Virus record (IMG/VR): IMGVR_UViG_3300013372_005453
Span: 1-20,249 of that record
Direction: 5' to 3' (one strand)
DNA from: a virus
DNA length: 20,249 nt
Translations under genes and position numbers: made by a program
The notes under the pieces: model-generated
Told to the model about the DNA's origin: nothing
The model's input: only the letters and a program-made list of their open reading frames with translations
The model's database searches: none
Shown: positions 3,686-20,071 of the stretch, piece after piece
Layout: every line of letters starts with the position of its first letter
Numbering within the stretch: the stretch's first letter is position 1

Positions 3686-4401
3686 AATATATTATTCCTT
3701 AAAAACTGTGTATATGTGGTATACTCTACATTTGGAATATATACTTTATCCATATCAAATGAATCATTTATATCTAGAACCTTACATCCGCAAACCATAG
3801 CTTCTGCTAAATATTCTTCTTCAATATAACATAGTATTTGACTTTGTAAAAGTATATCCTTTTTTTGTACCTCATCACAGAAACCTAAATTCTGTGGATG
3901 TTCTATTTTTGGATTATTAAACATTTTAATTGGCAATTTAGAATTCGGATATAGCTGAGATTGTAAAAATATTGGTATGCTATCTTTATTATCTAAGAAA
4001 AAAACTATTTGATTTATTTTATTATTCTCGATAGTTAAATTAGTATATATGTCATCATTAAGCATGTGCTTTGGTAATTTGATGGTGCCAATCTGATCAA
4101 TATCATAGTTTACGATATGTTTGGCAGCTATTAATTGTAGCCTCTCAAATAATGTTTTATCAAATATATCGTGATAAATAATAAAATTGATGTTTTTATG
4201 AAATTCTTCCATGAAAGACAATATTTCATTAGACATTAGGGACGCATTAATAATATATAAAGTATTTTGTTCATTATAAGCATAATGATATTTGTATATA
4301 TTGATTTGACTTATATCTATTTCTAAAAATTTTATATCTTTATTGATAATAACATTTTTATTGAATTTGTTATTTGATTTAGTTATTGAAATATTGTTCA
4401 T
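3682..4401 (-). CDS. Glycosyltransferase-like protein, C-terminal GT-B-like half
   Basis: This 239-residue protein is rich in Ile, Asn and Lys. Its second half contains FNNPKIEHPQNLGF, then a DEVQKKDILLQSQILCYIE helix, then YLAEAMVCGCKVLDIND. The last part matches the region of GT-B glycosyltransferases where a conserved acidic/Ala/Gly segment (EAMxCGxxVL) contacts the sugar-nucleotide. The N-terminal half has alternating strands (YIINASLMS, NFIIYHDIF) consistent with a Rossmann-like domain. Together with the gene at 3227-3685 it may form a two-piece enzyme. Start and stop are both tied to neighbours by 4-base ATGA overlaps (3682-3685 and 4398-4401). The fold assignment is inferred from motif order; the substrate is unknown. 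Confidence 0.55.
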   Translation of the reverse strand: MNNISITKSNNKFNKNVIINKDIKFLEIDISQINIYKYHYAYNEQNTLYIINASLMSNEILSFMEEFHKNINFIIYHDIFDKTLFERLQLIAAKHIVNYDIDQIGTIKLPKHMLNDDIYTNLTIENNKINQIVFFLDNKDSIPIFLQSQLYPNSKLPIKMFNNPKIEHPQNLGFCDEVQKKDILLQSQILCYIEEEYLAEAMVCGCKVLDINDSFDMDKVYIPNVEYTTYTQFLRNNIL

Positions 4402-5081
4402 AATTTTTTAATCATTTTTAGGTCTTTGATATTATTAATTTTTATTGGTAGCTTAGTATCTATAGTCACAGAATCCATTTTAATTCCATTGTCCGTTAAT
4501 ATATTAATCATTTCAAATAAAAATAGTTTCTTACAATCATTTTTTTTACCAATCTCTAATATTTTTGTTATTGATTCATCATTAAAATAAACACACTCTA
4601 ACCATTTTTGAGGCAAATCATAAAATAAATACTGAGTACTGTTAATAAAATTAATACCTATTTCAAAATGTGTTTGTAAAGTTTTATTGGTTATAAATAT
4701 ACTACTACGATCTTTGCGTATGCTGATTCTATCTAATAATAGTAAGCCGTTATTGATTACTAGTGTATGATTAATATTATGATTTTTTAAGCAGTGTAGT
4801 AGAGATCCACTTTGATTATCTGACTCATAATCTTGGTTATAGACGCAGTGAACATTTTTATATTTATTAGTTATTTTTAAGATTTTATCATGCTCAAAAC
4901 CTGTGGAAATAAATATGTTAATAGGATAATAAAATTTTTTTAAATACTGTATTTGATATTCTATAATAGTATGAGTTTTATTTATAGGTAACAAAGACTT
5001 TGATCCTATAGATTTCATGCCTTTAGTTATATCTGATACAAGTAGTATTGCATTATCTGGCTTATTCGATCTGATAGTCAT
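4398..5081 (-). CDS. Sugar nucleotidyltransferase-like protein with altered nucleotide-binding loop
   Basis: The 227-residue product starts like an NTP_transferase/MobA-type enzyme: a strand (NAILLVSD), a loop, then KGMKSIGSKSLLPI followed by a helix (HTIIEYQIQYLKKF) and a second strand (INIFISTGFEHDKIL). The order of loop, Lys, Leu-Leu-Pro-Ile and helix is the family signature. Members of this family activate sugars or cholines as nucleotide conjugates. However, the usual Gly-rich loop (AAGxGxRM) is replaced by VSDITKGM, losing the Arg and most Gly residues. A later QSGSLLHCL resembles the base-recognition segment. It may therefore use an unusual substrate, be inactive, or act as a structural subunit. 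The start overlaps the previous gene by 20 bases and the stop overlaps the next start by ATGA. It could supply activated sugar for the adjacent transferases. Confidence 0.6.
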   Translation of the reverse strand: MTIRSNKPDNAILLVSDITKGMKSIGSKSLLPINKTHTIIEYQIQYLKKFYYPINIFISTGFEHDKILKITNKYKNVHCVYNQDYESDNQSGSLLHCLKNHNINHTLVINNGLLLLDRISIRKDRSSIFITNKTLQTHFEIGINFINSTQYLFYDLPQKWLECVYFNDESITKILEIGKKNDCKKLFLFEMINILTDNGIKMDSVTIDTKLPIKINNIKDLKMIKKL

Positions 5082-5808
5082 TTATAATCATATCCTTAAC
5101 CTCAGATAGTACATATAGTAAATCACCTTCTCCAGCATTTAGCACAGACTTATATATAGATATTGGAATAAAAATACCACTAATAGTTGATTTTGATTCT
5201 TGAAAACAATGAACCAGTTTTTGTAAAACCCTTATATATAAATGAGCAATTTTAATTTTACTATTTAAGTTTATTTGTGAGATCGCCATTGGATCGTAAA
5301 ACATAACATATTTAGATTCAGTAATTTGAGATGTAGTTTCAAGAGCAGTATTACAGCAGGCATTAAAAGACATGGTATTCACGAATGAATGAATCTTCCA
5401 CTTAAATTTAATTTTATGTCCTATGTTTTTCATCTTGATATTGATATTTTCGTTAGCTTCTAATATAATCGATACAAATTTTGGTGGAATTTCTAATAGA
5501 TTAATCTCATCAATTACTTTGATAATTTGTTCATCATTCAATTGTCTAAAGTCCGCCATTAAATAGTATGTTATAGTAGATTTATTTCTAACTACCTCCA
5601 CTATATCAATCTCATGGAGATCTTCATTATTTATATAAGTTTCTTTAGAAAAACCATAAGAGCATTTATAATCGTATATATAATTATAGTTATCTATATG
5701 ATCTATTTTTTTTATATCTTTAATTTTATCTATAATTTCAAATTTACATTCAGTATCAGAATGAATATCATCAGCAAATAAGCATAATTTACAATTAGTA
5801 TTAGTCAT
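5062..5808 (-). CDS. Possible GT-A-like glycosyltransferase with N-terminal Cys cluster
   Basis: This 248-residue protein begins with a short Cys-rich patch (C6, C9, C21), which could be a small metal site or knuckle. The body resembles a family 2-type glycosyltransferase: a strand and helix (TITYYLMADFRQLNDEQI), a second strand (PKFVSIILEAN) and then FNACCNTALETTSQ followed by KYVMFYDPMA. In GT-A enzymes an N-x-A-helix followed by a strand ending in an acidic motif marks the sugar-nucleotide and metal site; here the expected DxD is only DPM, so the metal ligand set is incomplete. It therefore looks divergent or non-catalytic. It starts directly beside the stop of the methyltransferase-like neighbour (stop codon 5809-5811 adjoins the ATG at 5806-5808). 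I would not assign a substrate. Confidence 0.45.
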   Translation of the reverse strand: MTNTNCKLCLFADDIHSDTECKFEIIDKIKDIKKIDHIDNYNYIYDYKCSYGFSKETYINNEDLHEIDIVEVVRNKSTITYYLMADFRQLNDEQIIKVIDEINLLEIPPKFVSIILEANENINIKMKNIGHKIKFKWKIHSFVNTMSFNACCNTALETTSQITESKYVMFYDPMAISQINLNSKIKIAHLYIRVLQKLVHCFQESKSTISGIFIPISIYKSVLNAGEGDLLYVLSEVKDMIINDYQIE

Positions 5809-6231
5809 TTATATACCTGTTTTTGTTAATATAATATAAGTATTAATGTTATCTTTTTTCAAGTTAACAATTATAATATTAGGTTGATTTTTTATGCTAT
5901 TAATAACATCATAATAATTAATTGGATTGTGTGTGTTTTTGATTATTTGAAAAAAATCTTTATCTGATATATTTCCATTAGAATATAATTTGGCTACTCG
6001 TTTAAGATTAGTCAAAGACAAAATTAATTGTCCTTTGGGTTTGATTTTATCAAGCATCATATTTAGCATTTGTAAGGCTACATTTGTATCGAACTGAGAA
6101 AATATATTACATGTTATATTGTCTGCAGAGCAGCTATATATTGAATCTATGTTTTGTATAGATATATTTTCGAATCCAAGGATCGGAGAATTGGTCGCTG
6201 TTTCTGATATTAAGTTAATGTTTTTTGTCAT
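5809..6231 (-). CDS. Methyltransferase-like fragment lacking the SAM-binding motif I
   Basis: The 140 residues read like the C-terminal half of a class I methyltransferase: a segment ending near NIFSQFDTN, a helix (VALQMLNMMLDKIKP), then GQLILSLTNLKR as the strand after motif V/VI, followed by a helix and two strands (NIIIVNLKK, TYIILTKTG). Genes with the same layout (FENxSxQNxDS..., KPxGQLIxS) occur in phage sugar clusters as I remember them. The N-terminal Gly-rich SAM loop (GxGxG) is absent, so it is either a decayed methyltransferase, a domain that relies on a partner, or a fold reused for binding. It overlaps the downstream gene's start region by none and the upstream stop by ATGA at 6228-6231. 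Functional assignment is weak. Confidence 0.45.
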   Translation of the reverse strand: MTKNINLISETATNSPILGFENISIQNIDSIYSCSADNITCNIFSQFDTNVALQMLNMMLDKIKPKGQLILSLTNLKRVAKLYSNGNISDKDFFQIIKNTHNPINYYDVINSIKNQPNIIIVNLKKDNINTYIILTKTGI

Positions 6232-7091
6232 AGTGTCACCGGTAGTGTATAGTTTAGATCAATAATATTTTTTATTTTAAGTTTAAATGTTTCATAATTA
6301 TAATTATCTATAATATATTGTTGTGTCTCTTTAATATATTTATCATTATATTCATGTAGTAACTTATCGATTATATCATTTATAAGATTAAAGTCTTGAA
6401 TATTATGAACAAAACTATTATTTTCGGGAAAAGCTGCACCCAAACCGTAGCAGCCACAAGATACAGACATTAAAACATTATAATAGCTATTGATATCTAT
6501 GCAAATTTTATATGTGTTTAGTAGCGACGTAATAGTAGATTTATCATTTATTTCTTTAGTGTTCAGTATCCTAACGTTAGAATATTTCGATCTAATAAAA
6601 TGTTGTAGAGTCTCAGCCTGTCTGCTATCATTTGAATATAGTATAATTATATCATTAATTCTATCTTTATGCATATTCTGTGCATTTAGTTCAAAACCAT
6701 ATTTTATAATTTCCACATCAGGGAATTTATTTGCAACGTTCGGAATAAATGAATACTTTTTGTATTTAGATATATTATTGTTTATTAAATATATGTCTTC
6801 TTTTTTAAAGTTTGAAGAAATATCATCATGAAAAAATAATATTTTGTTAGAATAGTTTCTATGTAGAGCATTTTGTTCAATGATTTTTATAGGCTCATTA
6901 ATCACCGTAATCCCGTATGGTATGCGATATTTATCTATTGTGCTCTCATCAATAAAATAATATCCTTCAATATCTTGAATACTAAAATTATATAAACTAT
7001 TAATATGATTATAGCATACATTTAAGTTGATAAGCTTTTTATGTACAGCTAAACTATGAGATATATTGTTTATTTGATAGTCTATTGACAT
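6228..7091 (-). CDS. GT-B-like glycosyltransferase, divergent
   Basis: This 287-residue protein has a Rossmann-like N-terminal part with strands such as YSNKILFFHDDI and a middle strand-helix unit (RINDIIILYSNDSRQAETLQHFI) that resembles the start of the C-terminal GT-B domain. Near residue 205 it has YNVLMSVSCGCYGLGAAF, corresponding to the donor-site helix and strand of GT4-type enzymes, with the usual catalytic Glu positions replaced by neutral residues. The last 50 residues are helical, as in GT-B C-terminal tails. It overlaps the upstream gene by 10 bases and the downstream one by ATGA. It probably belongs to the same sugar pathway as its neighbours, but activity cannot be claimed because the expected ExxxxxxxE is not preserved. 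Confidence 0.5.
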   Translation of the reverse strand: MSIDYQINNISHSLAVHKKLINLNVCYNHINSLYNFSIQDIEGYYFIDESTIDKYRIPYGITVINEPIKIIEQNALHRNYSNKILFFHDDISSNFKKEDIYLINNNISKYKKYSFIPNVANKFPDVEIIKYGFELNAQNMHKDRINDIIILYSNDSRQAETLQHFIRSKYSNVRILNTKEINDKSTITSLLNTYKICIDINSYYNVLMSVSCGCYGLGAAFPENNSFVHNIQDFNLINDIIDKLLHEYNDKYIKETQQYIIDNYNYETFKLKIKNIIDLNYTLPVTL

Positions 7092-8071
7092 ATAATATCT
7101 ATTATACTAGGATGAAATACTTCTGGTGTTTGATCTGTTTGCGTAACTAGCATCATTTTATTAGATAATGACATTGTTGTAGCTGATTTGGTTTCTTCTG
7201 AAAATAAATAATTCTGACTGTTAGGAATATTTACAGTTGTTATATCAGACCAAGAAATTATTTTATTACCATATTGTTTTGCCATATGATCATTTAATGA
7301 AGATTCTATATTCGACGCAGATAAACTAATATAAACTTGACAAGATCTATGAATTGCAGACAACTCCTCGATACTGAAACTCTTAGCTAAAATATTTATA
7401 TTATGAGTGTCTGATAGTACGTTTAAATTCTTATATATTTGTTCTAATCTTTGGTTAAGATTTTCTGCTATGTCACTTGGCTCCTGATTAAAAAATAACA
7501 TTAATGATATATTATCCTGATCATGAAAAGCTAGTAAAAAAGAAGTAATTAATTTATCAAACATTGCAGGATCATATCTATCTATGCAATATATTTTTGT
7601 ATTATTATTATGATGGTAAAAGTTAATAACATTATTGACTGTATTATACATTTTTGAATATCCAAATACTTTAACATTATTTATGCCATAATCTTGACTT
7701 AATAGATTCTGATATTCAATTGAATCCACGAGAATCATATCAAAACTCTCTAATTGTTTATGGTAGTTTTCTTTATTAATAATATTTTCTATTATAGGAA
7801 TAGCAATATTTTTTTTACACAAGTGGGACATATCGCATAGAATATTTATATCAGCATGCTGGATTATACAATCATATTCGTCTAATAATTCTGCATTTTC
7901 TAAATTAGATATGATGAAATTTTGGGGAACAGTTGGGTCATTTGGTAAAACAATTGGTCTAATAGTTAACCTTGAAATCTGACTATGACTATTTAAACTA
8001 TCTATAATATCTTGACTAGCGTAAGATAAACATCTATTGTGCTTATAAGGACCTATATATAAAATATTCAT
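7082..8071 (-). CDS. GT-B-like glycosyltransferase
   Basis: The 329-residue product starts with MNILYIGPYKHNRCLSYASQ, a typical first strand and loop of a GT-B N-terminal domain. It has a linker near residue 150 and a C-terminal domain with NTKIYCIDRYDPAMFDKLI, a strand-helix pair (ISLMLFFNQEPSD) and FSIEELSAIHRSCQVYISLS. The last motif is the GT4-type segment where a helix precedes the donor loop. The catalytic Glu pair is not clear; the segment after it (SNIESSLNDHMAKQYG) is only partly similar. It is coupled to the upstream GT4 gene by ATGA (8068-8071) and overlaps the downstream gene by 10 bases. The likely role is a sugar transfer step; the acceptor is unknown. Confidence 0.55.
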   Translation of the reverse strand: MNILYIGPYKHNRCLSYASQDIIDSLNSHSQISRLTIRPIVLPNDPTVPQNFIISNLENAELLDEYDCIIQHADINILCDMSHLCKKNIAIPIIENIINKENYHKQLESFDMILVDSIEYQNLLSQDYGINNVKVFGYSKMYNTVNNVINFYHHNNNTKIYCIDRYDPAMFDKLITSFLLAFHDQDNISLMLFFNQEPSDIAENLNQRLEQIYKNLNVLSDTHNINILAKSFSIEELSAIHRSCQVYISLSASNIESSLNDHMAKQYGNKIISWSDITTVNIPNSQNYLFSEETKSATTMSLSNKMMLVTQTDQTPEVFHPSIIDIICQ

Positions 8072-9741
8072 TTAGTTAGACTCTTAATATTGGCATACTG
8101 TATAAAGTCTTCTTGTATTTCGGTTTTTTGTGATCTGATTCTTTCTATTTGATTATGATTATTAATTAGTGCTTGAATATTTTGCAAAACATTCTCGTAT
8201 GAAAATCCATTGATATTCATGCCAGATTGATGAAATCCATAAGAAGCATCCTTACACATATCCAACATCATCATGCTGCTCATTTTTTCTATATCATTCA
8301 GATTATTAGCACAAATACTATGGATTATATTAAAGGCATCTTTTTTAGAAAAATTATTTGGAATATTCGTATTTAGATAGTTGATAGGATCATTCCAAGA
8401 TTTTTTGGTTTTAAATAAGTGTTCTGAGTCTAGAAAATTTTCCCATATTTTGGCTATATTATCCCAATTATAATTTATCTCGGCTAGTCGTCTAACATTA
8501 TCTTTTTTTTGTTTGATTTGACTAGGACGTAATCTTAGGTGTTTTTTTACAATTTTTACAAAATCATTATTATTTGGATAACATCTAACGGCTTTTGTTT
8601 CTAATTCTGTGAAAAATGAACCTACTTTTATAGTGTATGCATCTAGTTTATTAATAACATCAACCATGGCGCTATAGTTTATAGTCGCAATAGGAACTCC
8701 ACAAGCAGCAGCTTCTATTTGAGGCATACCAGCACCCTCACATATTGCATATTGTACATATAATGAAAAAGTATTATATATATCAGATAGTATGTTATCG
8801 CTAACTCCATTATTTACGCTTGTAAACTTAACTGTTGGCTGTAAGCATTTTGAACAGAATTTATTGGGATGAGAATATACATCTGCGTGTACACTTTTAC
8901 ATCTTGCACACTGATATGTAAAAAATACTTTATTACATAATCTATGCTCTCTTAATAACTCTGGTATTTCCCAGCCAGCATCTGGATAGCTTGTATGTAG
9001 GTACAAGTATGTATTATTGGCTTCTTTCATTCCGTCAGCAGTTAACTCATCTAATAACTGACGAAATGCTCTCATTAATTCCGGAAATAGTTTTCTTTTT
9101 TGATTCCTCATCACAGATCCTATGATGAAACTGTCCACAGGTAGTCCTAGATTTTTTTTGATATTTTCGATATCTGATTTTGGTTTAAATACATCTAAAT
9201 TAACGCCGGGTCTAGTAGTACCTATATAATTGACCTTGTTATTGCTTTGATCTTGAATGACCTGACCACCCCAATCAGAATAAGAAAATACAGCATCAGC
9301 ATTGATATATGTATCTATCCAAGGATCCTGTTGTGGTGCAGAATCTACTGTTGGCATAAGTATCCAGTTAAAATATGATCTCAAAGGAGACATTTCTTGA
9401 TAGGAACTCATCCAATAATCTCTTATGTCTATAACAACATGCGGCTTAAAGTCTATGACTACTTTATCAAATCTCCATCTTCCAAACTGATTATCTCCCC
9501 TAGACGAATATTCTGCAAATCTTGGGTCATTATCTTTTACAGCATTTGCGTAGTATCTCCAGTGAATATCTTTATCTCTAGGGTCATTGACAAATCCATA
9601 AGAGGCAAATTCTGCTAATTCATACTTATTAGTTTTATACAATCTATTTAAGAGTTCCCTAGTATAATTTCCAAATCCAGAATTTATAAAGCTGGCTTCA
9701 GAAGCAAAAAGTATTCTTAATTTTTCTTTTAATAATGTCAT
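8068..9741 (-). CDS. Family 4-type glycosyltransferase with inserted zinc ribbon
   Basis: This 557-residue protein is the clearest sugar transferase of the cluster. Residues about 7-50 form a Rossmann start (RILFASEASFINSGFGNYTR). Around 205 lies the start of the second domain (FIIGSVMRNQKRKLF), and CEGAGMPQIEAAACGVPI gives the EGxGxPxxEAxAxG signature that binds the nucleotide-sugar in GT4 enzymes. Between them, at about residues 278-299, a four-Cys zinc ribbon (CARC ... CSKC) is inserted. After about residue 430 there is a long helical tail. I recall zinc-ribbon-bearing GT4 proteins in T4-like marine phages. The ATG at 9739-9741 is the first start after the ssb terminator; I see no strong purine-rich ribosome site or clear promoter in the 24 bases between them. 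It leads a run of overlapping genes. Confidence 0.8.
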   Translation of the reverse strand: MTLLKEKLRILFASEASFINSGFGNYTRELLNRLYKTNKYELAEFASYGFVNDPRDKDIHWRYYANAVKDNDPRFAEYSSRGDNQFGRWRFDKVVIDFKPHVVIDIRDYWMSSYQEMSPLRSYFNWILMPTVDSAPQQDPWIDTYINADAVFSYSDWGGQVIQDQSNNKVNYIGTTRPGVNLDVFKPKSDIENIKKNLGLPVDSFIIGSVMRNQKRKLFPELMRAFRQLLDELTADGMKEANNTYLYLHTSYPDAGWEIPELLREHRLCNKVFFTYQCARCKSVHADVYSHPNKFCSKCLQPTVKFTSVNNGVSDNILSDIYNTFSLYVQYAICEGAGMPQIEAAACGVPIATINYSAMVDVINKLDAYTIKVGSFFTELETKAVRCYPNNNDFVKIVKKHLRLRPSQIKQKKDNVRRLAEINYNWDNIAKIWENFLDSEHLFKTKKSWNDPINYLNTNIPNNFSKKDAFNIIHSICANNLNDIEKMSSMMMLDMCKDASYGFHQSGMNINGFSYENVLQNIQALINNHNQIERIRSQKTEIQEDFIQYANIKSLTK

Positions 9742-10248: not shown

Positions 10249-10276
10249 ATTATAGCCTGTGGGAATGGACTGTCAA
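10249..10276 (-). promoter_or_regulatory. Sigma70-type promoter driving ssb
   Basis: On the minus strand there is a TTGACA (plus 10271-10276), a 16-base spacer and a TATAAT (plus 10249-10254), i.e. both hexamers match the sigma70 consensus. Transcription would begin near 10242, about 45 bases before the ssb ATG. The -35 box overlaps the stop codon of the polymerase C-half gene. It is the only consensus promoter I could see, and it implies use of the host RNA polymerase. Confidence 0.85.
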
Positions 10277-11877
10277 GAGTATGGCACAAAACATTTTTCT
10301 ACGATCAAGCCATCTTTAGCTTTCGCCTTATTGCCAGAAAAAATTAATATATTACTTTCAAATAAATGATGCTTATACTCTTCATATTTATTAGGGAAAA
10401 ATATAACAGAATCAAGCATACCTGTTTGATCTTCTATACTCACAAAGGCCATTTCTTGTCCTGGATTTTGCCCAGTTTTAGTTTTTACGATATTAATATT
10501 AGCAATCTCACCAGCAATTAGAATATTTTTTATATGAGTAGTATTTTTAAATTCTTTACAGTTGGTATTAGTCATAGCTATATCATAAGTGTCTAGTTTT
10601 GAGCATGATATTGCCACACCTAAAGCTGAGGATTCATTATCTGCTAACCAGTCTATTTTATCTAATAATGAGAATGGGGGATTAATACGAGCCGCCAGAA
10701 GATCCCGAATGATTTTTTTTCTTTTAATGTTTGTTTTTGAATGATTTATTAGGTAGGTAAATATATCAGACAAATTACTATTAATATCGATTAGTTCTTG
10801 ACAATATTCTTTTTCTTTTTTTGTTAAGTTTATAGATAGCTCATATTCAAATAATATTTCAGTTCTATTTTTTTTAAAGTAATCCAATGCCCCACAACAT
10901 ATCAGAGCCTTAGCCGCAGTTGAATTTATATTGTGCAGGATCTCAAAAAGTAATTGTGTGTACGGTAAATGCTCTATATTTTTAGTATTATTTAATTCTA
11001 ATATTTTATCGTATACAGATAATCCTATTCCTTTAATGTCTGTGAGTCCAAAATATATTTTAGTATTATGTATTGTGAATAATTTATTTAATAGCCTAAT
11101 ATCTGGTAGACATACTGATATATCCATTTCATTGGCATTACTAACTAGTTCTTTGATTTCTTGCTGTGGATCTACTTTATCTTTAGCAAATCTTAAATAC
11201 GAACAAAAAAAGGCTTGAGGGAAATGAGCTTTTGTATACGCAGATAAGTATGCATTCATAGCATAAGAAACAGAATGAGATAAATTAAATTGATATCTTT
11301 GTGCTTTTTCAATCCATCCGAAAATTTCTTCTGCCTCTTCGATAGTAACTTTATTTAAATTCTTACAGCCTTGTAAAAATTTAGTTTTAGTTTTAGCCAT
11401 AAGCTTAGTGTCTTTTTTACCTATGCTTTTTCTTAATTCGTCTGCTTCCTGAAGGTTAAAACCTGCGATGATTCTAGATATCTCCATGGCCTGCTCTTGA
11501 TATATCATTTCTCCATAGGTATCTTGTAATACTGTTTCTAAAATTGGATGAAAATAATCGATACTTTCTTGACCATTTTTTCTATCTATATAATGATTAG
11601 TGATACTTTTTCCATCTCTTATGGCTTCTAAAGAACCCGGCCTTAGTACTGCTATGAGTGCAGACAATTGTTGTATATTTTCTGGCTTCAATTTTTTAGC
11701 CGTGGTTTGACCGAATCTAGACTCTAATTGAAAAATTCCTTTAGTATTCCCATCAGAAATCAATTTCCATGTTTTATCACATAATAGATTTATATCGCTG
11801 ACTTTAGGAGAGAAGATCAATTTATTATCGTCTATAATATCGAAAGAGCACCCACAACTAAATTTGTACTTTTGCAT
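10273..11877 (-). CDS. dnaE: DNA polymerase III alpha subunit, C-terminal half (fingers, HhH, OB)
   Basis: This 534-residue protein continues the polymerase that starts at 14605. After about 35 extra residues with a short CGC motif, it enters the conserved block DKTWKLISDGNTKGIFQLES, followed by RPGSLEAIRDG and the fingers block MIYQEQAMEISRIIAGF, then ADELRKSIGKKD and FNLSHSVSYAMNAYLSAYTK. A helix-hairpin-helix-type segment (FGLTDIKGIG) and an OB-type domain (AGEIANINIVKTKTGQ) close it. It holds the incoming-nucleotide and DNA-binding parts; the catalytic aspartates are in the other half. An in-frame TTG at 11881-11883 is possible, but I chose the ATG at 11875-11877; both overlap the exonuclease gene. 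The two halves must assemble without covalent joining, since no intein motif is visible. Confidence 0.9.
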   Translation of the reverse strand: MQKYKFSCGCSFDIIDDNKLIFSPKVSDINLLCDKTWKLISDGNTKGIFQLESRFGQTTAKKLKPENIQQLSALIAVLRPGSLEAIRDGKSITNHYIDRKNGQESIDYFHPILETVLQDTYGEMIYQEQAMEISRIIAGFNLQEADELRKSIGKKDTKLMAKTKTKFLQGCKNLNKVTIEEAEEIFGWIEKAQRYQFNLSHSVSYAMNAYLSAYTKAHFPQAFFCSYLRFAKDKVDPQQEIKELVSNANEMDISVCLPDIRLLNKLFTIHNTKIYFGLTDIKGIGLSVYDKILELNNTKNIEHLPYTQLLFEILHNINSTAAKALICCGALDYFKKNRTEILFEYELSINLTKKEKEYCQELIDINSNLSDIFTYLINHSKTNIKRKKIIRDLLAARINPPFSLLDKIDWLADNESSALGVAISCSKLDTYDIAMTNTNCKEFKNTTHIKNILIAGEIANINIVKTKTGQNPGQEMAFVSIEDQTGMLDSVIFFPNKYEEYKHHLFESNILIFSGNKAKAKDGLIVEKCFVPYS

Positions 11878-12568
11878 TTCCAAAGGATCCCTTAAATTTT
11901 ACTTTTTGTCCTAAACTTCTATGTAATCGCAAAAATCTAATCATAATTTCTGCTGTGTCCTTAACATCTTTCAATGCATCGTGAGATCCTTCTTTGCTAA
12001 TTCCTAAATAGTCTCTTAAATTATCAAGTGTATAATTTTTTAATTCATTATTATACTCAAACCAATAGAATAAAACATTCATAACGTCTACTACATCTCT
12101 AGGATAAAATAGATCAGATCGTCCCTCTTTGTTAAGATTGTTATATTTTTGACTCAGTCTTTCGATAATCTTAAGATCAAATCGGTTTATATTATATCCA
12201 GCTGCTATAGGAGCAGAAAAACAAGATTTTTTACCACTAAATCTGGCGTGATACATTTGTAAATAGGAGACAAACAATTCCCAACCAGTTTTTTGATCTT
12301 GATAACCATGCCATGCTTTTAATATATCGCTTTTAGATGATCCTCTGACCTTGGAGTGAAAATCTAAAACATCACTATCTTCATATTTATAATCTGAATT
12401 ATTTTCTAAAGCCTCTGGTTTTAAGTTAACATTAAATTCAGAATTAGGAACTATCTCTAACTTTATTGGATCTACAATAATAGCAGCAATCTGAATAGGA
12501 CTACACTTATCTGGATTAACTCCATCAGTTTCCATATCAAAAACACAAAATTTTTGAAAATTAGGCAT
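11858..12568 (-). CDS. DnaQ-like DEDDh 3'-5' exonuclease (proofreading candidate)
   Basis: The 236-residue protein has all three exonuclease motifs of the DEDDh group: Exo I VFDMETDG (D11, E13), Exo II GYNINRFDLKII (D131) and Exo III HDALKDVKDTA (H196, D201). Enzymes of this family remove 3' nucleotides with two metal ions; epsilon of polymerase III is the best-known member. Sitting between the two halves of the polymerase gene, overlapping the C-half by 20 bases and the small ORF by 8, it is a strong candidate for the proofreading subunit of this phage polymerase. It is longer than the bare catalytic domain, with an insertion around residues 55-110. Direct interaction with the polymerase is inference from gene order. 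Confidence 0.9.
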   Translation of the reverse strand: MPNFQKFCVFDMETDGVNPDKCSPIQIAAIIVDPIKLEIVPNSEFNVNLKPEALENNSDYKYEDSDVLDFHSKVRGSSKSDILKAWHGYQDQKTGWELFVSYLQMYHARFSGKKSCFSAPIAAGYNINRFDLKIIERLSQKYNNLNKEGRSDLFYPRDVVDVMNVLFYWFEYNNELKNYTLDNLRDYLGISKEGSHDALKDVKDTAEIMIRFLRLHRSLGQKVKFKGSFGNAKVQI

Positions 12569-12740
12569 TGACTATCACCGTCGATCCACCATTAACATAA
12601 ATCTTGTCATTGGCATTATCTACTGCCTGAGCATTAAAAGACTTGCAGCAACTAACTTTAACACTTGGAATTTTAATATACTCTTTGGCATTAAGAGTAA
12701 ATCTTTGACCTTCTAAGACTTGCGAAAAATTTTTATTCAT
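12561..12740 (-). CDS. Small 59-residue protein between polymerase halves
   Basis: This short reading frame starts with ATG at 12738-12740, which overlaps the TGA of the polymerase N-half (ATGA), and ends with TAA at 12561-12563, overlapping the start of the exonuclease. It fills the only gap between those genes, so coupling strongly supports it being real. The product looks like a small beta-rich domain: an F..V.EGQRFTL start, KEYIKIPS, then SCCKSFNAQAVD and a strand ending STVIVNA. A pattern of the type G..F.......Y.KI......C..FNA recurs in small phage proteins, to my memory, without known function. A role as polymerase accessory is only suggested by position. Confidence 0.8.
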   Translation of the reverse strand: MNKNFSQVLEGQRFTLNAKEYIKIPSVKVSCCKSFNAQAVDNANDKIYVNGGSTVIVNA

Positions 12741-14605
12741 AGTTGAATACCTCCATTTGATAAAAGTTCTGAGATGTACATAGCCTTATCCAAGAAGGCC
12801 AAGCCTAATACATCAAATTTAATTACACCTAAAGACTCTAGGTCTTGCATCTCCATACCTGCTATAATTTGATCATTTTTAGAGTCATATACCATAGGAC
12901 AAATTTCATTTAAACTTGCACTAGATATTACAACTCCAGCAGCATGTTTCGATTGATTCGACTTTGTTCCTTCTAGACGTATAGCCTGTTCAAATCTTTT
13001 TGCGAAAGGCCCAGCCAAGGAGTTATCATCTGTAATATAGCACCACTCCTTTAGTTTGTCAACACGATTCTCTAAAGCCCATCTAATAATCGAAGATTCT
13101 CCAGTTTCATCTCTCATCTCTTGTAATTCATCAGCAATTTTAGCTTCGTCTGGTATGTGTTTGGTGATTCTATTCATTTCTTCAAAACCAACATTACCAT
13201 ATACTCTAAGTACTTCTTTTAATGCTCCTCGGCCTTTCATGGTATTATATGTGATCATCTGAGATACTTTGTCTGATCCATATTTATTTTTTACATATTC
13301 TATAACATGTTCTCTCTTATTGATTGGTACGTCCATGTCAATATCAGGTAAAGATATTCTATCCTTAGTATTTCTACCTGCAGAATAAAATCTCTCAAAA
13401 ATTAATTTATATTTTATTGGATCTATATCTGTAATACCTATCAAATAAGAAACTAAACAACCAGCAGCACTACCTCTTCCTGGGCCTGCTAGCCAATTAT
13501 TTTTCTTAACATAATCAATCATATCTTGAACTATTAAAAAATAACTTGATAATCCAGCTCCCTGTAATACTGTTAATTCTGTTTTGATTCTATCGGTATA
13601 AATATCTTCTGAGTCTACTTGTCCTTTAATCTTATCTCTCCAGCCATTACGACACAGTTGTCTTAAATATGAATCAGGATCATAACCTTCTGGACATTTA
13701 AAATTCGGCAAAAATGGATTGTGCTTAATTTCGTAGTCATCACACATGTCAGCCACAAAATTAGTATTTTCTATTTCATCATGAGTATGTAGAGTGTTCA
13801 TCTCTGTATGGTCTGGAATATGATATTTGTCCGATTTAAAAAAACATCCCATTGGAACACTATCATTATTTAGTATTTTTTTATTGATATCAGAAAAAGT
13901 AACTTTAAGATTATTACACAATAATATTCGTTGATCTATGGCATCTTCACTTTCACAATAATGAGCATCTGGAGTCGCTATAACCTTTGTGCCATTTGCC
14001 ACAGCAATTCTTCTAATAGTTTCTGTTAGCTCTACTTGTAATGGAGTATGTTCTTTATCCATTAACTGAGACTCTAAAAAAAAGTTATCGATACCAAAAA
14101 TATCTTTCATCTTAGCTACAAATTCAGTGCCAATACTCATAGGATCTTCTACCATGTATAACTTATCGGCTAATGTAGATCCCAAATGTCCACAAAAACC
14201 TATAATATTACCGTCTAGCATTTTAGCTAATTTATCTAGATTTAATCTAGGTTTTTTATAAAAATATTTTGGAGAATTTGATTCAGAGATAATCTTTATT
14301 AAAGTTTTCCATCCGTTATAATTTTTAGCCAGTAATAAAAAATGAGATAGATCTGAATTCTCTTTTGACTTTATGGACGGATCTTGTTCACATATGTATA
14401 TCTCACAACCCAGTATTGGTTTAATTCCTGCTGATCTCATTGATGAGTGGAATTGAACGGCCCCGGAGATGGTCCCGTGGTCTGTTAAAGCACATGATTT
14501 AGCTCCTATTTTCAAGCATCTGTCTGTGATCTGTTTTGGCTTACTCAGACCATCTAGTAGAGAATAGTGAGAATGAACATGCAAAGGAGTATAAAAAGAC
14601 ATCAT
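12737..14605 (-). CDS. dnaE: DNA polymerase III alpha subunit, N-terminal half (PHP and palm)
   Basis: The 622 residues hold the PHP domain (1-about 220) and the catalytic palm and thumb. PHP metal ligands appear complete: H9, H11, D18, H43, E68, H88, C138, D213 and H215. The polymerase part has GPGRGSAAGCLVSY, LPDIDMDV (420-426) and KFDVLGL (D598), which supply the three catalytic aspartates. The protein stops 24 residues after D598, where a full-length alpha subunit would go on to the fingers; that part is encoded at 10273-11877. It is therefore a natural split gene, not a truncation, because both halves are open and conserved. The start uses the first of two ATG codons and overlaps the nuclease stop (ATGA at 14602-14605). 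It synthesises phage DNA at the fork. Confidence 0.92.
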   Translation of the reverse strand: MMSFYTPLHVHSHYSLLDGLSKPKQITDRCLKIGAKSCALTDHGTISGAVQFHSSMRSAGIKPILGCEIYICEQDPSIKSKENSDLSHFLLLAKNYNGWKTLIKIISESNSPKYFYKKPRLNLDKLAKMLDGNIIGFCGHLGSTLADKLYMVEDPMSIGTEFVAKMKDIFGIDNFFLESQLMDKEHTPLQVELTETIRRIAVANGTKVIATPDAHYCESEDAIDQRILLCNNLKVTFSDINKKILNNDSVPMGCFFKSDKYHIPDHTEMNTLHTHDEIENTNFVADMCDDYEIKHNPFLPNFKCPEGYDPDSYLRQLCRNGWRDKIKGQVDSEDIYTDRIKTELTVLQGAGLSSYFLIVQDMIDYVKKNNWLAGPGRGSAAGCLVSYLIGITDIDPIKYKLIFERFYSAGRNTKDRISLPDIDMDVPINKREHVIEYVKNKYGSDKVSQMITYNTMKGRGALKEVLRVYGNVGFEEMNRITKHIPDEAKIADELQEMRDETGESSIIRWALENRVDKLKEWCYITDDNSLAGPFAKRFEQAIRLEGTKSNQSKHAAGVVISSASLNEICPMVYDSKNDQIIAGMEMQDLESLGVIKFDVLGLAFLDKAMYISELLSNGGIQL

Positions 14606-15642
14606 GCTGTTCCTGGGGCTTTATAGGATCCAAAAGAGTGATTTGGATGCTTATACTCTTGTACCACATGATTCATATTATGCAAGTCTATATCGTGTTT
14701 GATTTGCTCGCACTTTGTCATAACAGAACCCTCTTTACAAGTTTGTCCATTTCTATATTCTATAATCGGTAATATACTGGTGTTCTCAAAAGTTGTTTTA
14801 CCAAAATGGCATAACTTAGAACACATCCAACTCTTATGTAATTTTGGTTTTTTTGTATGTTTAATATATTCAAATTTTCTCCTCAGCATATCCTCAGTTT
14901 CTGCTAGGTCTTTTTTACCGAAACATATTGAGAAAGGGCCGCCATCATTAATAAAATAAATCGAAAAAATGATATTTTCTATTTCTGGATATAAATGACT
15001 AATAGCGTAATGATATATTCTTAATTGAGGATCTTTTTCTAATTTTTCTTGTGTCTTTTCTTGTCCAGTAGCCCAGTCTAATCTTCTGCCTGTTTTCCAA
15101 TCAATAATCTCTATAGTCTTATCATTTACTAAAGTAACCAGATCTATAGTTCCTTTTAATGCCAAATTACCACTAATCTGCTCGTTTGATGTATTAAACG
15201 AGTATTCCGCCCATTTCTTATTTATAGTAAAATCAAAATGTTGCTCTGGTACTAATATGTTGCGATTTCTAGGGTCAAACATTCCACCATTAAATTCGAT
15301 AGCCTTATAAACCCAGGCATGACAATCTTTATGATCTTTTGGAGACCATTTATGATGATTAGATATTGTGCTATAATACTTATATACTTGCTCTATAATT
15401 AAGTCTAAATTATAATCAAAAGTATTTATATTACCTATTACATCATCGATAATTTCTAGTAAATTATCTTGTTTGGCTTTTTTTATAATGGCTAGTATTT
15501 CTAATACTTTATGAACAATAGTACCCTTATCTGCCTTTTGTCCTGATGGTCCTCTCCAACCTAGTATATATTCGATAAAAAACTGTTGCTCACACATATT
15601 ATGGGTGTTATATGATGAGCTTCTAAAGTATGTAATTATAAT
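14602..15642 (-). CDS. RecB/Cas4-family PD-(D/E)XK nuclease, probable AUU start
   Basis: The protein has the RecB-nuclease layout: GTIVHKVLE near the N-terminus (His motif), LKGTIDLVTL (Asp), EIIDWKTGR (D-x-K) and QLRIYHYA (Q-x-x-Y). One Cys near the N-terminus (MCEQQFF) and Cys residues near the C-terminus (CSKLC, TCKEG, KC) could form a Cas4/AddB-type Fe-S cluster. Such enzymes resect or trim DNA ends in recombination. The first ATG in frame is at 15595-15597, but it has no ribosome site and would drop the upstream in-frame RSSSYNTHN, which precedes the conserved Cys in homologues as I recall them. I prefer an ATT at 15640-15642, 8 bases after AAAGGA, giving 346 residues; the ATG start would give 331. 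It follows the kinase with a 7-base overlap. The nuclease call is firm; the start is inferred. Confidence 0.8.
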   Translation of the reverse strand: MIITYFRSSSYNTHNMCEQQFFIEYILGWRGPSGQKADKGTIVHKVLEILAIIKKAKQDNLLEIIDDVIGNINTFDYNLDLIIEQVYKYYSTISNHHKWSPKDHKDCHAWVYKAIEFNGGMFDPRNRNILVPEQHFDFTINKKWAEYSFNTSNEQISGNLALKGTIDLVTLVNDKTIEIIDWKTGRRLDWATGQEKTQEKLEKDPQLRIYHYAISHLYPEIENIIFSIYFINDGGPFSICFGKKDLAETEDMLRRKFEYIKHTKKPKLHKSWMCSKLCHFGKTTFENTSILPIIEYRNGQTCKEGSVMTKCEQIKHDIDLHNMNHVVQEYKHPNHSFGSYKAPGTA

Positions 15643-16226
15643 GTGAGTATTCCTTTATCTATAAGATATTGATGTATGAGTCTATTTTGTTCTCCAATAG
15701 TCATATAGTGATTTTCAACAACAAGATCAAATTTATCAGTGGGGAATTTTTCTGTGTCTAATGCCGTTTCACTATCATGATCAGAATTATAAGGATTTCG
15801 TGTTAATTTAATTACCAATCCACCAGCATTATGAACAGCTTCCACTACATTAGGAAATCTACAATCAGCAATAATAGCTAGTTTCGGTTGTTCTAATTTG
15901 ATTTTATTAATTGTTGCAGATGCCCAAACATCATTTTTCATTTTGCGAAATAGATCAGTACCAACAAATTGCATAACCTCTCGTGCAGTTAGTCTAGCGT
16001 CTTGCCAATAACAGTCTGTAAATGTATTTTTGCTTTCATCATTACCATAACATTGATCATATGATAACCCTAAAATATTTATACATATGTCCCTTTTCAG
16101 TGGGTCTGCAAAGTTATATATTTGTGGAGTTCCTAGTAAAGAACCAGCATAGCAATTGGCTACAAATTCAGAACATGTTGTTTTACCAGATTGCTTTCTT
16201 CCAGCGAATGCTATAATTTGTGTCAT
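15636..16226 (-). CDS. Deoxynucleoside monophosphate kinase
   Basis: This 196-residue protein has a P-loop at residues 9-16 (GRKQSGKT), a LID/substrate region containing FADPLKRDI and YGNDESKN, REVMQFVGTDLFRKM in the middle and ADCRFPNVVEAVHNAGG followed by IKLTRNP. That order matches phage deoxynucleotide monophosphate kinases of the T4 gene 1 type, which phosphorylate dNMPs using ATP and feed dNTP pools; T4's enzyme also accepts a modified dCMP. Whether this one handles an unusual base is unknown. The ATG overlaps the primase stop (ATGA at 16223-16226), and the stop overlaps the proposed start of the nuclease. It fits between replication genes as a precursor supplier. Confidence 0.9.
   Translation of the reverse strand: MTQIIAFAGRKQSGKTTCSEFVANCYAGSLLGTPQIYNFADPLKRDICINILGLSYDQCYGNDESKNTFTDCYWQDARLTAREVMQFVGTDLFRKMKNDVWASATINKIKLEQPKLAIIADCRFPNVVEAVHNAGGLVIKLTRNPYNSDHDSETALDTEKFPTDKFDLVVENHYMTIGEQNRLIHQYLIDKGILTL
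15651..15656 (-). promoter_or_regulatory. Ribosome binding site supporting a non-ATG start of the RecB-like gene
   Basis: AAAGGA on the minus strand lies inside the end of the kinase gene, 8 bases before an in-frame ATT at 15640-15642. The downstream ATG at 15595-15597 has no comparable purine-rich site. The spacing is therefore evidence for initiation at ATT, though a sequence error or initiation at a nearby in-frame ATA or ATT cannot be excluded. Confidence 0.45.
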
Positions 16227-17380
16227 AATGATAATTTTTCTATTTGAGGAATAATATCAGATTGAATCTGATCGATAGTCATACATCCTATGTCGTCATA
16301 TGTCATGTTCAATGTAAAAATGTTATAGGTTTTGTTGCATTTTTTCTTAATCATTTCTACAGCTTTAGTACCAGCTTCATCGTTGTCCATCAGCAATAAC
16401 AAAGAAAGAGCACCTGATATGTCTAATAATATTTTTTGCTTATCTGACAATGAAGATCCAAAAACAGCTAAAGAATTATGTATTCCGGCTTCTTCTAATC
16501 TCCATACATTACCTGGACTTTCAACTATAATTGCATAATTCATTTTGGATATATATTCTTTAGCAAATCCATAATTATATAAATGTTCTTGTGTTTTAAA
16601 GTCCTTACTATGTCTCCATTTAGAGTTTAACCAAAGCTCACTATCTTTAGGACAATTATCTGCACTATGATGAGTCTTGCATTTCAAACATTTTTCAAAA
16701 GTGCTTCTGCCTGTGCAGCCAACCATGTAAGAATTGCTTATATCATAAACAGGAACTACTGCACGATTAAACATTTCTTTAGTAGATATTAGACAGTCTC
16801 CAACGTCATATTTTGATAGTATTTCAGGTGTATAGCCCCTATTTAAAAAATATTGAGATGGTATATTTAAGGCTTTACGAACTTGAGGTCTAGCTACTTT
16901 GTGTGTAACTATAGTACTCTTTTTTTCATTTATATAGTTAACTGTATTAACAAAATTACTTTTTTCTTGATGTCTTTTATCAATTTTAATGTCGTCTAAG
17001 TTTTGATTAATAAATTTTTGTGCAAATGCTAGTGCCTCAGCAAATGAACATGTGTCATCTCCATTGACTCTCCAATTATGCTCTTGATGAGAGATAATTC
17101 CTCTAATAAAGCCTAATATAGAAGATTTAAAAATTTCTTCACATTGATGAGTTCTACATTTCCAGTTACCACGATATCGATCTCCTTCTGGGTATAAATT
17201 TAAAGCCGATGGGTTATCTCCTCCATGTATTGGACAACTCATGGTAATCATTTTTGGCAATGTTTTAAATTCTATACCAAAATAAGATAATAGCGGCTCT
17301 ATTTCGTCGCAAAGTCTATCGGATAATATCTTTAACTTTTGCTGATTATACGAATGAAATTTTTTCTTCATTGTTGTCAT
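16223..17380 (-). CDS. dnaG: DnaG-type primase (zinc finger plus TOPRIM)
   Basis: The 385-residue protein has a CHC2-type zinc finger at about residues 49-80 (SCPIHGG, KCRTHQC), an uncharacterised middle, a second Cys cluster (KCLKCKTHHSADNC) and a TOPRIM domain. The TOPRIM acidic motifs are E287 in IVESPGNV and DNDEAG at 332-337. It makes RNA primers for the phage fork. It ends about 50 residues after the TOPRIM core, shorter than cellular DnaG, so the C-terminal helicase-binding domain is missing or reduced; the helicase gene directly upstream implies cooperation anyway. The second Cys cluster is unusual for DnaG and resembles the one I recall in marine phage primases. The ATG at 17378-17380 overlaps the helicase gene by 35 bases; M4 is an alternative start. 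Confidence 0.88.
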   Translation of the reverse strand: MTTMKKKFHSYNQQKLKILSDRLCDEIEPLLSYFGIEFKTLPKMITMSCPIHGGDNPSALNLYPEGDRYRGNWKCRTHQCEEIFKSSILGFIRGIISHQEHNWRVNGDDTCSFAEALAFAQKFINQNLDDIKIDKRHQEKSNFVNTVNYINEKKSTIVTHKVARPQVRKALNIPSQYFLNRGYTPEILSKYDVGDCLISTKEMFNRAVVPVYDISNSYMVGCTGRSTFEKCLKCKTHHSADNCPKDSELWLNSKWRHSKDFKTQEHLYNYGFAKEYISKMNYAIIVESPGNVWRLEEAGIHNSLAVFGSSLSDKQKILLDISGALSLLLLMDNDEAGTKAVEMIKKKCNKTYNIFTLNMTYDDIGCMTIDQIQSDIIPQIEKLSL

Positions 17381-18800
17381 CTACTATGAATCCATCTTTC
17401 TTAGTTGAGTGATTGTGAGACAGTTCTAATTTAGTTTTACCTTCTGTAATTTTTGCACACCACCCCTTGAGATTAAAATTAATATAGTCATTATCATCTA
17501 AACATCCACCATGCCTACTAATTAACGGTATTAGTTTTCTATTTCCTGAATCACCACCATCTTCTGCAATCTCTTCATCAGACTTCCTTTTAAATATACT
17601 AAAGTTACTACATAACCATATAATTCTATCTGATCCGCTAGCCGTATCTGTGCTTTCTTTGGTAATACCGTCTCTGTTCAACTGAATAAAGCCCAATATC
17701 GGTATTTGATATTTTACTGAAAAATTATGTAATGCCGTCATCATGAAGCCTAATAGTTGATATTCTTTTAAATCTTGAGATATTCCGGTACTGTCCATTA
17801 ACTTTAAATAATCATATATGATCAAACAATCTTTTGCTGTACCGTCTGGATTAAGACCAACATCTTTACAAATCCATCTTCTCATAATATTTAGCTGTTC
17901 ATCAAAAGGCTTACCAGCTATAGACTTGTAATATAACCTAGTGCTTTTAAGTTCTTCAGATGCTTTTTTAATCTTTTCATGCTGTACAGGAGAGTCCGTG
18001 AACTTTCCTGTTTCTATTTTATTAATCTCTATTTCAGTAATTAGAGCTAATATCCTGTGAATATGATCCTTATTATTCATTTCTGTATCCATATTCAACA
18101 CAGGAATCTTCAATTTATTTGCAACGTGAAATCCTACATTATCTGCCCACATAGACTTACCGGCTTTAGGGCGTGCTGCAATAATATTGACTGTACCTTT
18201 TCTGAAACCTCCTCCTATAGCTTGGTCATATACTGGAAAACCACTTGAGATACCCATCTGATCTATAGGATTCTCTATCAGATATTGTATATAATTATCA
18301 ATATCGTCACCAATTTTATATGGCTCATTATCATTAGATAAATTAGCTCCAAATGCAAAAAGACTGTCTTCCGCTATAGACAGAATAGATGATATGGGCT
18401 CAGAACCTGTCACATCTAATAATTTCTCTTGAGCTTTTTCTAGTTCTTTATGTAAAGACCGAGCAATTTCGAGTTTCTTAATTTTTATAGCAAACTGTTT
18501 AGCATTATCTATATTCGCAGGAAAGTCCTTAATCGCTTTAAGGTGCTGGGCTTCTTCTTTTTTGTTCAATATATGAACAAATCCCAAATCCTGTGCGGCT
18601 GAGTATATGGACGCTATATCTAGTGATGAAGATAAATCTTTAGCAAAAACATGTTTTATGCAACTATAAAGTAATTGATTACTGTCCACAGTAAATGTAT
18701 CATTACTGATAATATCATTAACCTCTAAAAAAGCCTTATCTCCATATTGTAAGATACAACTTAATACTGCCCTCTCGGCAGATGGATCACAAAGAATCAT
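17346..18800 (-). CDS. dnaB: Replicative DNA helicase, DnaB type
   Basis: This 484-residue protein has a DnaB N-terminal helical domain (SAERAVLSCILQYGD, 7-21), a linker and a RecA-like C-terminal motor. Walker A is ARPKAGKS (209-216), Walker B is LIIYDYLKLMD (326-336), and FIQLNR (371-376) corresponds to the sensor motif, followed by SGSDRIIW (388-395) near the Arg-finger region. It would form the hexameric fork helicase that unwinds dsDNA 5'-3' and recruits primase. Length is normal for the family. It lies between a zinc-ribbon protein 3 bases upstream and the primase it overlaps by 35 bases, so a helicase-primase pair is likely. No intein is seen. Confidence 0.95.
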   Translation of the reverse strand: MILCDPSAERAVLSCILQYGDKAFLEVNDIISNDTFTVDSNQLLYSCIKHVFAKDLSSSLDIASIYSAAQDLGFVHILNKKEEAQHLKAIKDFPANIDNAKQFAIKIKKLEIARSLHKELEKAQEKLLDVTGSEPISSILSIAEDSLFAFGANLSNDNEPYKIGDDIDNYIQYLIENPIDQMGISSGFPVYDQAIGGGFRKGTVNIIAARPKAGKSMWADNVGFHVANKLKIPVLNMDTEMNNKDHIHRILALITEIEINKIETGKFTDSPVQHEKIKKASEELKSTRLYYKSIAGKPFDEQLNIMRRWICKDVGLNPDGTAKDCLIIYDYLKLMDSTGISQDLKEYQLLGFMMTALHNFSVKYQIPILGFIQLNRDGITKESTDTASGSDRIIWLCSNFSIFKRKSDEEIAEDGGDSGNRKLIPLISRHGGCLDDNDYINFNLKGWCAKITEGKTKLELSHNHSTKKDGFIVDDNNEEKISFV

Positions 18801-19190: not shown

Positions 19191-19671
19191 GTTTAACCTT
19201 TGTTTTTTGTATCGATATCATAATATCGCTTAAGTTTTTAATATTATTTGCTAGATATGATAGTCTATCCATTCTCTGTTTAGCATATTTTTTGATACTA
19301 TTTAGCGCAAAAGCTTTCTCGTTATGTTTGATAGCTTGTAATGATTTTTCTATATATCCATAACCTTTATAGTTATTGATCTCGTCAGCAATAGTTTCTT
19401 TCGTGCTCTCTTCTGCCCAATTATGTCTAGCTATTTCTCTATTAAGACTTCTTTGTAAATAAAAACCAAATTGAGCCAAGCGGTAAGAAATTTGAGCACA
19501 ATCTTCAGGTGTTAATTTTTCTATTTCGTCTCTGTTCATTGATAAATAATGATTAATCTCTGATTCGGCTACTGAACAACCAATACTATATTCTGATAAT
19601 GAGATACTTTTCTCATATTCATCCAGGATTTTATCCCAGTTATGTAAATCTTCTTTAGCTGTTTTGGTCAT
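19180..19671 (-). CDS. Helical protein of unknown function
   Basis: I do not recognise this 163-residue protein. It is almost entirely helical: EDCAQISYRLAQFGFYLQ, NREIARHNWAEESTKETI, a Gly/Tyr turn (NNYKGYGYIEK) and a long final helix rich in Arg and Lys (KYAKQRMDRLSYLANNI), perhaps forming a coiled coil. There is no Cys pair, P-loop or signal peptide. A small helical protein between a nuclease and a zinc ribbon in a replication-recombination operon could be a mediator or loader, but this is context only. It overlaps the nuclease gene by 17 bases. Confidence 0.7.
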   Translation of the reverse strand: MTKTAKEDLHNWDKILDEYEKSISLSEYSIGCSVAESEINHYLSMNRDEIEKLTPEDCAQISYRLAQFGFYLQRSLNREIARHNWAEESTKETIADEINNYKGYGYIEKSLQAIKHNEKAFALNSIKKYAKQRMDRLSYLANNIKNLSDIMISIQKTKVKHVS

Positions 19672-20071
19672 GTTTAATTTTATCCTCCCATTCTGCTATA
19701 GATTCATTGTATGCTAAAGATATGTATTTTATATCGTTTTTTTCACACCATTCTTGTTTTTCTTGATCTCTTTTTTTGGCTTTTAAAAAATTTAGAATAT
19801 TATTATGATAGAAACTAACAAATTTAAAATGTTGTTCTCCATGAACTTCTATACAGGTTTTAATAAGAGGTAAATAAAAATCAAGATATAAAGTTTCTGA
19901 TTTTCTAAGAGGTATCGGTACTTCTTCAAGAATTTGTAAAGTTGGATATTGATGTACTATCAACTTTCTTGCCTGCAAATGAAGAGATGATTTATTTAAT
20001 AATTTTCCTTTTGATATATATCCAGTTAAATTCCAATTTATTAGATTATCATTTAAATCAATAATATTCAT
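19655..20071 (-). CDS. Small PD-(D/E)XK (Vsr/DUF559-like) nuclease
   Basis: The 138 residues contain a compact endonuclease core: acidic E49/E50 region, LYLDFYLP (D64), IEVHGEQHF (E75 to F82) and a later K-rich helix (KAKKRDQEKQEW) preceding a final strand (IKYISLAYNE). This matches the Vsr/DUF559-like branch of the PD-(D/E)XK nucleases and resembles the nuclease domain of the homing endonuclease at 2452-3252, but without its DNA-recognition parts. Its start overlaps the recA stop (ATGA at 20068-20071), so the two are coupled. A role in repair or recombination is a reasonable inference; a domesticated mobile-element nuclease is the alternative. Confidence 0.7.
   Translation of the reverse strand: MNIIDLNDNLINWNLTGYISKGKLLNKSSLHLQARKLIVHQYPTLQILEEVPIPLRKSETLYLDFYLPLIKTCIEVHGEQHFKFVSFYHNNILNFLKAKKRDQEKQEWCEKNDIKYISLAYNESIAEWEDKIKHDQNS

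Follow-up and report, generated by a model that had tools for sequence, protein, structure and literature searches.

The locus studied here raises the question of how a phage replicates its DNA when the catalytic subunit of its replicase is encoded in two genes. The stretch is the entire IMG/VR virus record IMGVR_UViG_3300013372_005453 (20,249 bases, hereafter the window), in which a DnaE-type (C-family) DNA polymerase III (Pol III) alpha is divided into an N-terminal half (N-half) and a C-terminal half (C-half), and between them lie a small conserved protein (S) and an exonuclease (X). We consider it highly probable that the replicase is such an alpha made as two polypeptides, with X as proofreader and S as accessory, from one coupled cassette N-S-X-C. 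This reading is carried by the split and its conservation in relatives, by invariant catalytic residues and purifying selection, by the fixed gene order with its overlaps, and by the finding of no second detectable polymerase.

The break and the two halves

The cassette is composed of the following features, all on the minus strand:

12737-14605, minus: N-half of the DnaE-type Pol III alpha, 622 amino acids (aa), with PHP, palm, thumb and all three catalytic Asp (D421, D423, D598); PF02811, PF07733, phrog_405 positions 42-605
12737-12740, minus: N/S stop-start overlap, 4 nt, from the sequence
12561-12740, minus: S, 59 aa, small conserved protein, predicted beta-barrel; phrog_2183 (function unknown)
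12561-12568, minus: S/X overlap, 8 nt, from the sequence
11858-12568, minus: X, DEDDh 3'-5' exonuclease, 236 aa; PF00929 (RNase_T) above cut-off, phrog_192 "DNA polymerase exonuclease subunit"
11858-11877, minus: X/C overlap, 20 nt, from the sequence with the C-half counted from ATG
11779-11877, minus: N-terminal extension of the C-half, residues 1-33, predicted beta hairpin, C8-G-C10 and C33
10273-11883, minus: C-half of Pol III alpha counted from TTG; PF17657, PF14579, sub-threshold PF01336, phrog_405 positions 623-1054

For the C-half, the ATG at 11877 is a likelier start than the TTG at 11883, which gives a protein of 534 aa (10273-11877) beginning with MQKYKFSCGC. The positions of the open reading frames (ORFs) and the overlap of their start and stop codons had already been given in a first-pass annotation of the sequence, and both hold. 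The same annotation placed a single defined break between palm and fingers, with the N-half ending 24 residues past the third catalytic Asp (KFDVLGL), and alignment with full-length DnaE agrees, as only a short linker is missing: TIGR00594 is covered from 1 to 563 by the N-half and from 579 to 1022 by the C-half (about 15 linker positions missing), while the match of the N-half to Taq DnaE stops at 634 and that of the C-half begins at 653. The break sits in the palm-fingers loop, which leads from the helix that follows the third catalytic Asp to the fingers.

Pfam profiles find PHP and DNA_pol3_alpha in the N-half, and the finger domain, HHH_6 and a weak OB match in the C-half; taken across both halves, the domain set of a DnaE-type alpha is present in order (PHP, palm/thumb, fingers, HhH, OB). 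The OB match, PF01336, is below its own cut-off, and OB-like strands are present in the predicted structure of the C-half. This AlphaFold model has a predicted local distance difference test (pLDDT) score of 85, and its best match is Taq alpha (4iqj, E 3.7e-21). The C-half had been said to resume at DKTWKL, but it starts earlier, with the extension of about 30 residues, in which C8, G9, C10 and C33 are invariant in 65 of 65 sequences. The extension is modelled as a small hairpin (strands 3-5 and 11-16), and its Cys set is a possible metal-binding knuckle. DnaE alpha is usually a single polypeptide; here it is split in every clade member examined.

Conservation, expression and surroundings of the cassette

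Relatives were obtained from scans of viral contigs, which gave hundreds of matching stretches, and 239 loci were analysed, with the presence of each gene scored by tblastn with N, S, X and C. All four genes are found in 224 of the 239 loci, always in the order N-S-X-C, a recurrence well above what chance would give, and this check of gene order, which the first-pass annotation had proposed, rules out an assembly artefact. The four-gene loci hold 119 distinct X-to-C sequences from many metagenomes (approx. 107 after near-identical ones were collapsed). Loci with one gene unfound are mostly cut at a contig end, carry an S-like ORF missed by the search, or belong to distant phages outside the clade (L161-L163); an S-like ORF with the SCC motif lies in the gap, although missed, in L043, L129, L141, L150, L326 and L327. 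No fused (uninterrupted) dnaE was found among the clade members.

The residues expected of a working enzyme are kept. Counted in N-halves of at least 600 aa (n = 64), the catalytic polymerase Asp (two in PDIDxD, one in KFD) are present in all 64, as are the PHP metal ligands D18, H43, E68, H88, H140, D213 and H215, with H9 and H11 in 59. X belongs to the DEDDh (DnaQ-like) class, with D11, E13, D131, H196 and D201 in 79 of 79 sequences, and its C-terminal KFKGSF tail is conserved, F225 being present in all 79. Ratios of nonsynonymous to synonymous substitution rates (dN/dS), calculated for pairs made up of the window and a relative or of two relatives, range from 0.01 to 0.07 in N, X and C and from 0.05 to 0.36 in S, and these values are rough, dS being high in several pairs. 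Purifying selection acts on all four genes, and both halves are open and conserved, as had been claimed from the window.

Each of 14 large contigs (120-244 kb) has one palm gene (in two pieces where an insert lies within it) and one fingers domain. Neither family A (PolA) nor family B (PF00136) polymerases gave a match in these 14 contigs, whose completeness is unproven. Across the loci surveyed, a Shine-Dalgarno-like site precedes S in 81 of 83 cases, X in 21 of 80 and C in 24 of 75, and X and C usually overlap the preceding gene or start a few bases after it, the S/X and X/C overlaps each being commonly 8 nt. Few such sites before X and C, together with overlap of the preceding gene, are what translational coupling would give, and the spacing fits a cassette that would be coupled in this way.

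S is a small new protein family and a candidate polymerase subunit. In an alignment of 81 sequences F14, C31, C32 and V55 are invariant, and a full-length match occurs once per contig, within the cassette, in 14 of 14 large contigs. Its AlphaFold model is a confident small beta-barrel (pLDDT 93), whose neighbours in the PDB are SH3/EF-P domain I, ribosomal and Tudor barrels with Z of circa 5 only, which is too low for a function to be assigned from the fold. A PDB sequence search with S gave no match, and tblastn with S and with its consensus matched no isolated phage. Identification of S with Pol III theta (HolE) was also rejected, as theta is small and helical and S is predicted to be mainly beta. 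The product of a small SH3-fold gene that stands beside a jumbo-phage family B polymerase has been proposed as a possible subunit of that enzyme (PMC7824862), and the likeness to S is an analogy only.

As for the host, the C-half is encoded on three metagenome-assembled genome contigs assigned to Alphaproteobacteria, Chitinophagia and Flavobacteriales, assignments that disagree and may reflect mis-binned phage. The terminase of one large contig has 24-32% identity to those of isolates, the best being Bacillus phage Staley.

Around the cassette, also on the minus strand, the window holds:

15636-18800, minus: dNMP kinase, DnaG-like primase and DnaB-like helicase, upstream; Pfam and phrog profiles
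14602-15597, minus: PD-(D/E)XK nuclease directly upstream of the N-half; PF12705, with a related gene also upstream of the N-half in the distant locus L162
9819-10196, minus: SSB, downstream of the cassette; PF00436

With the kinase, primase and helicase upstream, the locus is therefore a replication module. Downstream of it, 3227-9741 is a run of glycosyltransferase-like and uncharacterised genes, among them a 557-aa protein of the glycosyltransferase region (8068-9741) whose homologue, at 35% identity, adjoins the polymerase of L162. Two ORFs at 2452-3252 and 19655-20071 show, by eye, Vsr/DUF559-like motifs (IEVDGPSHF, IEVHGEQHF) and are possible free-standing endonucleases.

Inserts and other divided polymerases

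The polymerase genes of some relatives carry inserts of their own. In L132 (3315-6391) and L106 (4044-7117) a split intein, together with a separate gene of nuclease-like type, breaks the N-half after GRG, so that these viruses encode alpha in three genes; the L140 N-half has an insert at this residue too (378/379). In L027 (11330-13700) a split intein, accompanied by a LAGLIDADG gene, breaks the C-half at residue 202. The profiles TIGR01445 (N-half of L132) and TIGR01443 (C-half of L027) both score above cut-off. A LAGLIDADG gene lies at N-half residue 416-424, beside PDIDxD, in L097 (5341-6267) and also in L147, L148, L149 and L152; the L097/L147 insert is intron-like only by place, and an Rfam search of the insert-bearing loci gave no match at gathering score. 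Between the N-half and S, an HNH-like gene is found in L132 (6428-7108, without Pfam match) and L146 (6433-7125). Between X and the C-half, L310, L311 and L313 have extra genes (a 140-aa protein, and pilin-like and ThyX-like genes in L311 and L313), and their halves are still open. Given the endonuclease genes at these sites, the cut may plausibly have originated when a mobile endonuclease was inserted.

The distant locus L162 (contig IMGVR_UViG_3300037264_001910, 2788-3975) has the same cut, and its gap contains a 110-aa ORF, an RNase HII (E 1e-35) and a zinc-ribbon protein. Its C-half has a CxC...C head, a homologous glycosyltransferase and PD-(D/E)XK nuclease lie around the polymerase, and synteny with the window is partly kept. 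Trees were quick, short searches with long branches; in these L162 is sister to the window clade with support 91. As the cut is the same and the gap genes are different, the split seems older than the S-X cargo.

Isolates were sampled as the best matches plus 60 evenly spaced of 1369 records. In two of these the cut is in the same palm-fingers loop: Rossellomorea phage phiT1 (573 aa, a 49-aa ORF, and 469 aa) and Mycobacterium phage Cuke (601 and 477 aa, with overlapping ends). The quick trees recover the window clade as one group (100) and place Cuke with MontyDev, Damien and Patience (100) and phiT1 with mostly fused Bacillus-type phages (93), so that both phages were apparently cut independently of the window clade. 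No exonuclease or S homologue was found in the gap of phiT1 or Cuke, and when viral contigs were scanned with the phiT1 halves, the outcome was three distant loci only, or nothing. At other sites dnaE is cut, with no intein seen, in Neptune (L169, Microbacterium), Peregrin (L168, Rhodococcus), Terapin (L165, Gordonia) and MontyDev (L167, Mycobacterium), all four at the PHP/palm border; together with KLEB27-3 (Bacillus phage, OM634661.1, L172) and Jayan (Bacillus phage, PQ299153.1, L159), such cuts fall in the fingers around an HNH gene, in the PDIDxD region, or at that border. Staphylococcus phage MVC_VPHSA2 has two overlapping dnaE ORFs, which may be genuine or the product of a sequencing frameshift. 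One of the best isolate matches for X is in Bacteroides phage DAC19, where no polymerase half adjoins it.

Split polymerases as such are already known. Cyanobacterial DnaE is encoded by two genes, and its halves are rejoined by protein trans-splicing via the DnaE intein, a system mentioned in PMC3919608; the window shares the two-gene DnaE, and it differs from this system in that no intein lies at its break. Dassa et al. (2009, cited in PMC6892783) reportedly described fractured genes in which split inteins occur with free-standing endonucleases, a pattern which resembles the other polymerase sites of the clade (L132, L106, L027), and not the palm-fingers break. The E. coli Pol III core is alpha-epsilon-theta, with alpha as one chain and a helical theta, and may serve as a functional analogy only (alpha, a DEDDh exonuclease and a small third subunit), as S is predicted to be beta and X is at most a putative epsilon orthologue. 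Among phages, the split gp43A/43B of Aeromonas phage 25 co-purify with polymerase activity, and in phages 25 and 44RR they are, like the present case, a two-chain replicative polymerase with a homing endonuclease or intercistronic insert; unlike it, they are of family B, occur in few phages and have no conserved small gene and exonuclease between the halves (PMC2988022). Group 2.2 jumbo phages have a family B polymerase and, in addition, a minimal Pol III alpha whose two genes lie far apart (PMC7824862). That is also a phage C-family alpha in two proteins, with the other Pol III domains absent, whereas the window alpha is near full-length with PHP, HhH and OB, its genes are neighbours, and it is the sole polymerase found, with no PF00136 in the 14 large contigs. 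For Microbacterium phages of cluster EF it has been remarked that a subunit for which one gene is usual is matched by two (PMC7302621). phiT1 and Cuke are alike in their same-loop two-gene dnaE with no intein seen, and differ in lineage and in the content of the gap. We found no account of the N-S-X-C cassette in the open-access literature, and the present case is a new form, a two-chain near full-length C-family alpha with S and X within its cassette.

The proposed two-chain polymerase and its alternatives

In the mechanism we propose, the PHP-palm-thumb chain with the catalytic Asp (N-half) and the fingers-HhH-OB chain (C-half) would be translated from the coupled cassette and would fold together into the ordinary alpha fold without covalent joining. 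X would be the proofreading (epsilon-like) exonuclease of the core, probably held via its conserved C-terminal tail, and S may be a small beta-barrel accessory subunit or an assembly factor, while the split would have arisen by insertion into the palm-fingers loop, where endonuclease-like genes still occur in some relatives. The first-pass annotation had proposed a holoenzyme assembled from separate chains rather than one enzyme cut by mutation. The second part of this statement is strongly supported by the clade-wide arrangement, the low dN/dS, the invariant active sites, the 14 large contigs with no other polymerase, and the lack of any uninterrupted clade relative; the first part stands as the most economical reading, for which T4-like gp43A/43B is a direct precedent. 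Several points weigh against it. Contact between the chains (N-half, C-half, S and X) is something that we infer; the 14 large contigs gave no match to the beta-clamp family PF02768, and hence no candidate processivity partner; S has a fold common among small uncharacterised phage proteins, and only its conserved position ties it to the polymerase; and the split is kept in L162 although the gap there has neither S nor X, so the split as such does not depend on them. In favour of the reading, phiT1 and Cuke, which group with uncut phages, are cut in this loop as well, and the cut is therefore tolerated.

It could be argued that the two pieces are oddities or are made whole again. That we are looking at an assembly error, or at the decaying polymerase of one phage, has nothing in its favour beyond the oddness of splitting an essential gene, is refuted by the 119 distinct sequences with low dN/dS and invariant catalytic residues, and is given practically no credence here. 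Rejoining of the halves, by a split intein in the style of cyanobacterial DnaE, by a self-splicing intron carrying S and X, or by a frameshift or bypass, deserves slightly more attention, since the split inteins and endonuclease genes elsewhere in the polymerase genes of L132 and L106 (after GRG in the N-half) and L027 (C-half) mean that the lineage can probably trans-splice. At the palm-fingers break, however, neither half has an intein domain in Pfam or NCBIfam, in agreement with the earlier claim that no intein motif flanks it, and clade-wide the N-half ends approx. 16-24 residues past KFDxLG and the C-half opens with an ordinary ATG. For an intron, the gap gives no Rfam match at E up to 1 and is wholly coding, which leaves no room for an intron core, and two conserved genes in it rule out a simple frameshift. 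Rejoining is thus already largely refuted and very improbable.

Alternatively, the halves might act apart, e.g., as a PHP nuclease (N-half) and a DNA-binding factor (C-half), with the phage using the host replicase. Both halves are independent ORFs whose domains are whole, and the conserved PHP metal ligands suggest that the N-half alone could be a nuclease; however, the polymerase Asp and the fingers, which separate functions would not need, are strongly conserved, the cassette lies among primase, helicase and SSB genes, and no other phage polymerase is detectable, and we regard separate roles as improbable. A more serious contender, though still an unlikely one, is that the split is neutral debris of homing-endonuclease invasion with S and X as mere passengers, which is compatible with a two-chain polymerase and contests only the roles of S and X. 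It draws on the HNH-like genes of L132 and L146, on the KLEB27-3 dnaE split around an annotated HNH gene, on the RNase HII and zinc ribbon in the L162 gap, and on the extra genes of L310, L311 and L313, whereas practically all clade members keep S and X, at a fixed position and with ends that overlap, both genes are under purifying selection, and S is single-copy. In the opposite direction, the core could be an obligate complex of four chains, in which S (invariant CC) and the CGC...C extension of the C-half form a clasp at the break, e.g., by a shared metal site; this we hold to be doubtful, less likely than the passenger role and more likely than halves acting apart. If the clasp were real, the palm and fingers chains could be held together, or opened and exchanged, and the replicase would be regulated by reversible assembly.

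For the phages concerned, the two-chain reading would mean that a bacterial-type replicase has been kept in two chains across a large uncultured clade of big phages, with an exonuclease gene within its cassette and with no visible splicing route, so that a two-piece replicase would have been sustained over long evolution. On the present trees the palm-fingers loop has been cut three times, and this loop may be a natural split site for C-family polymerases.

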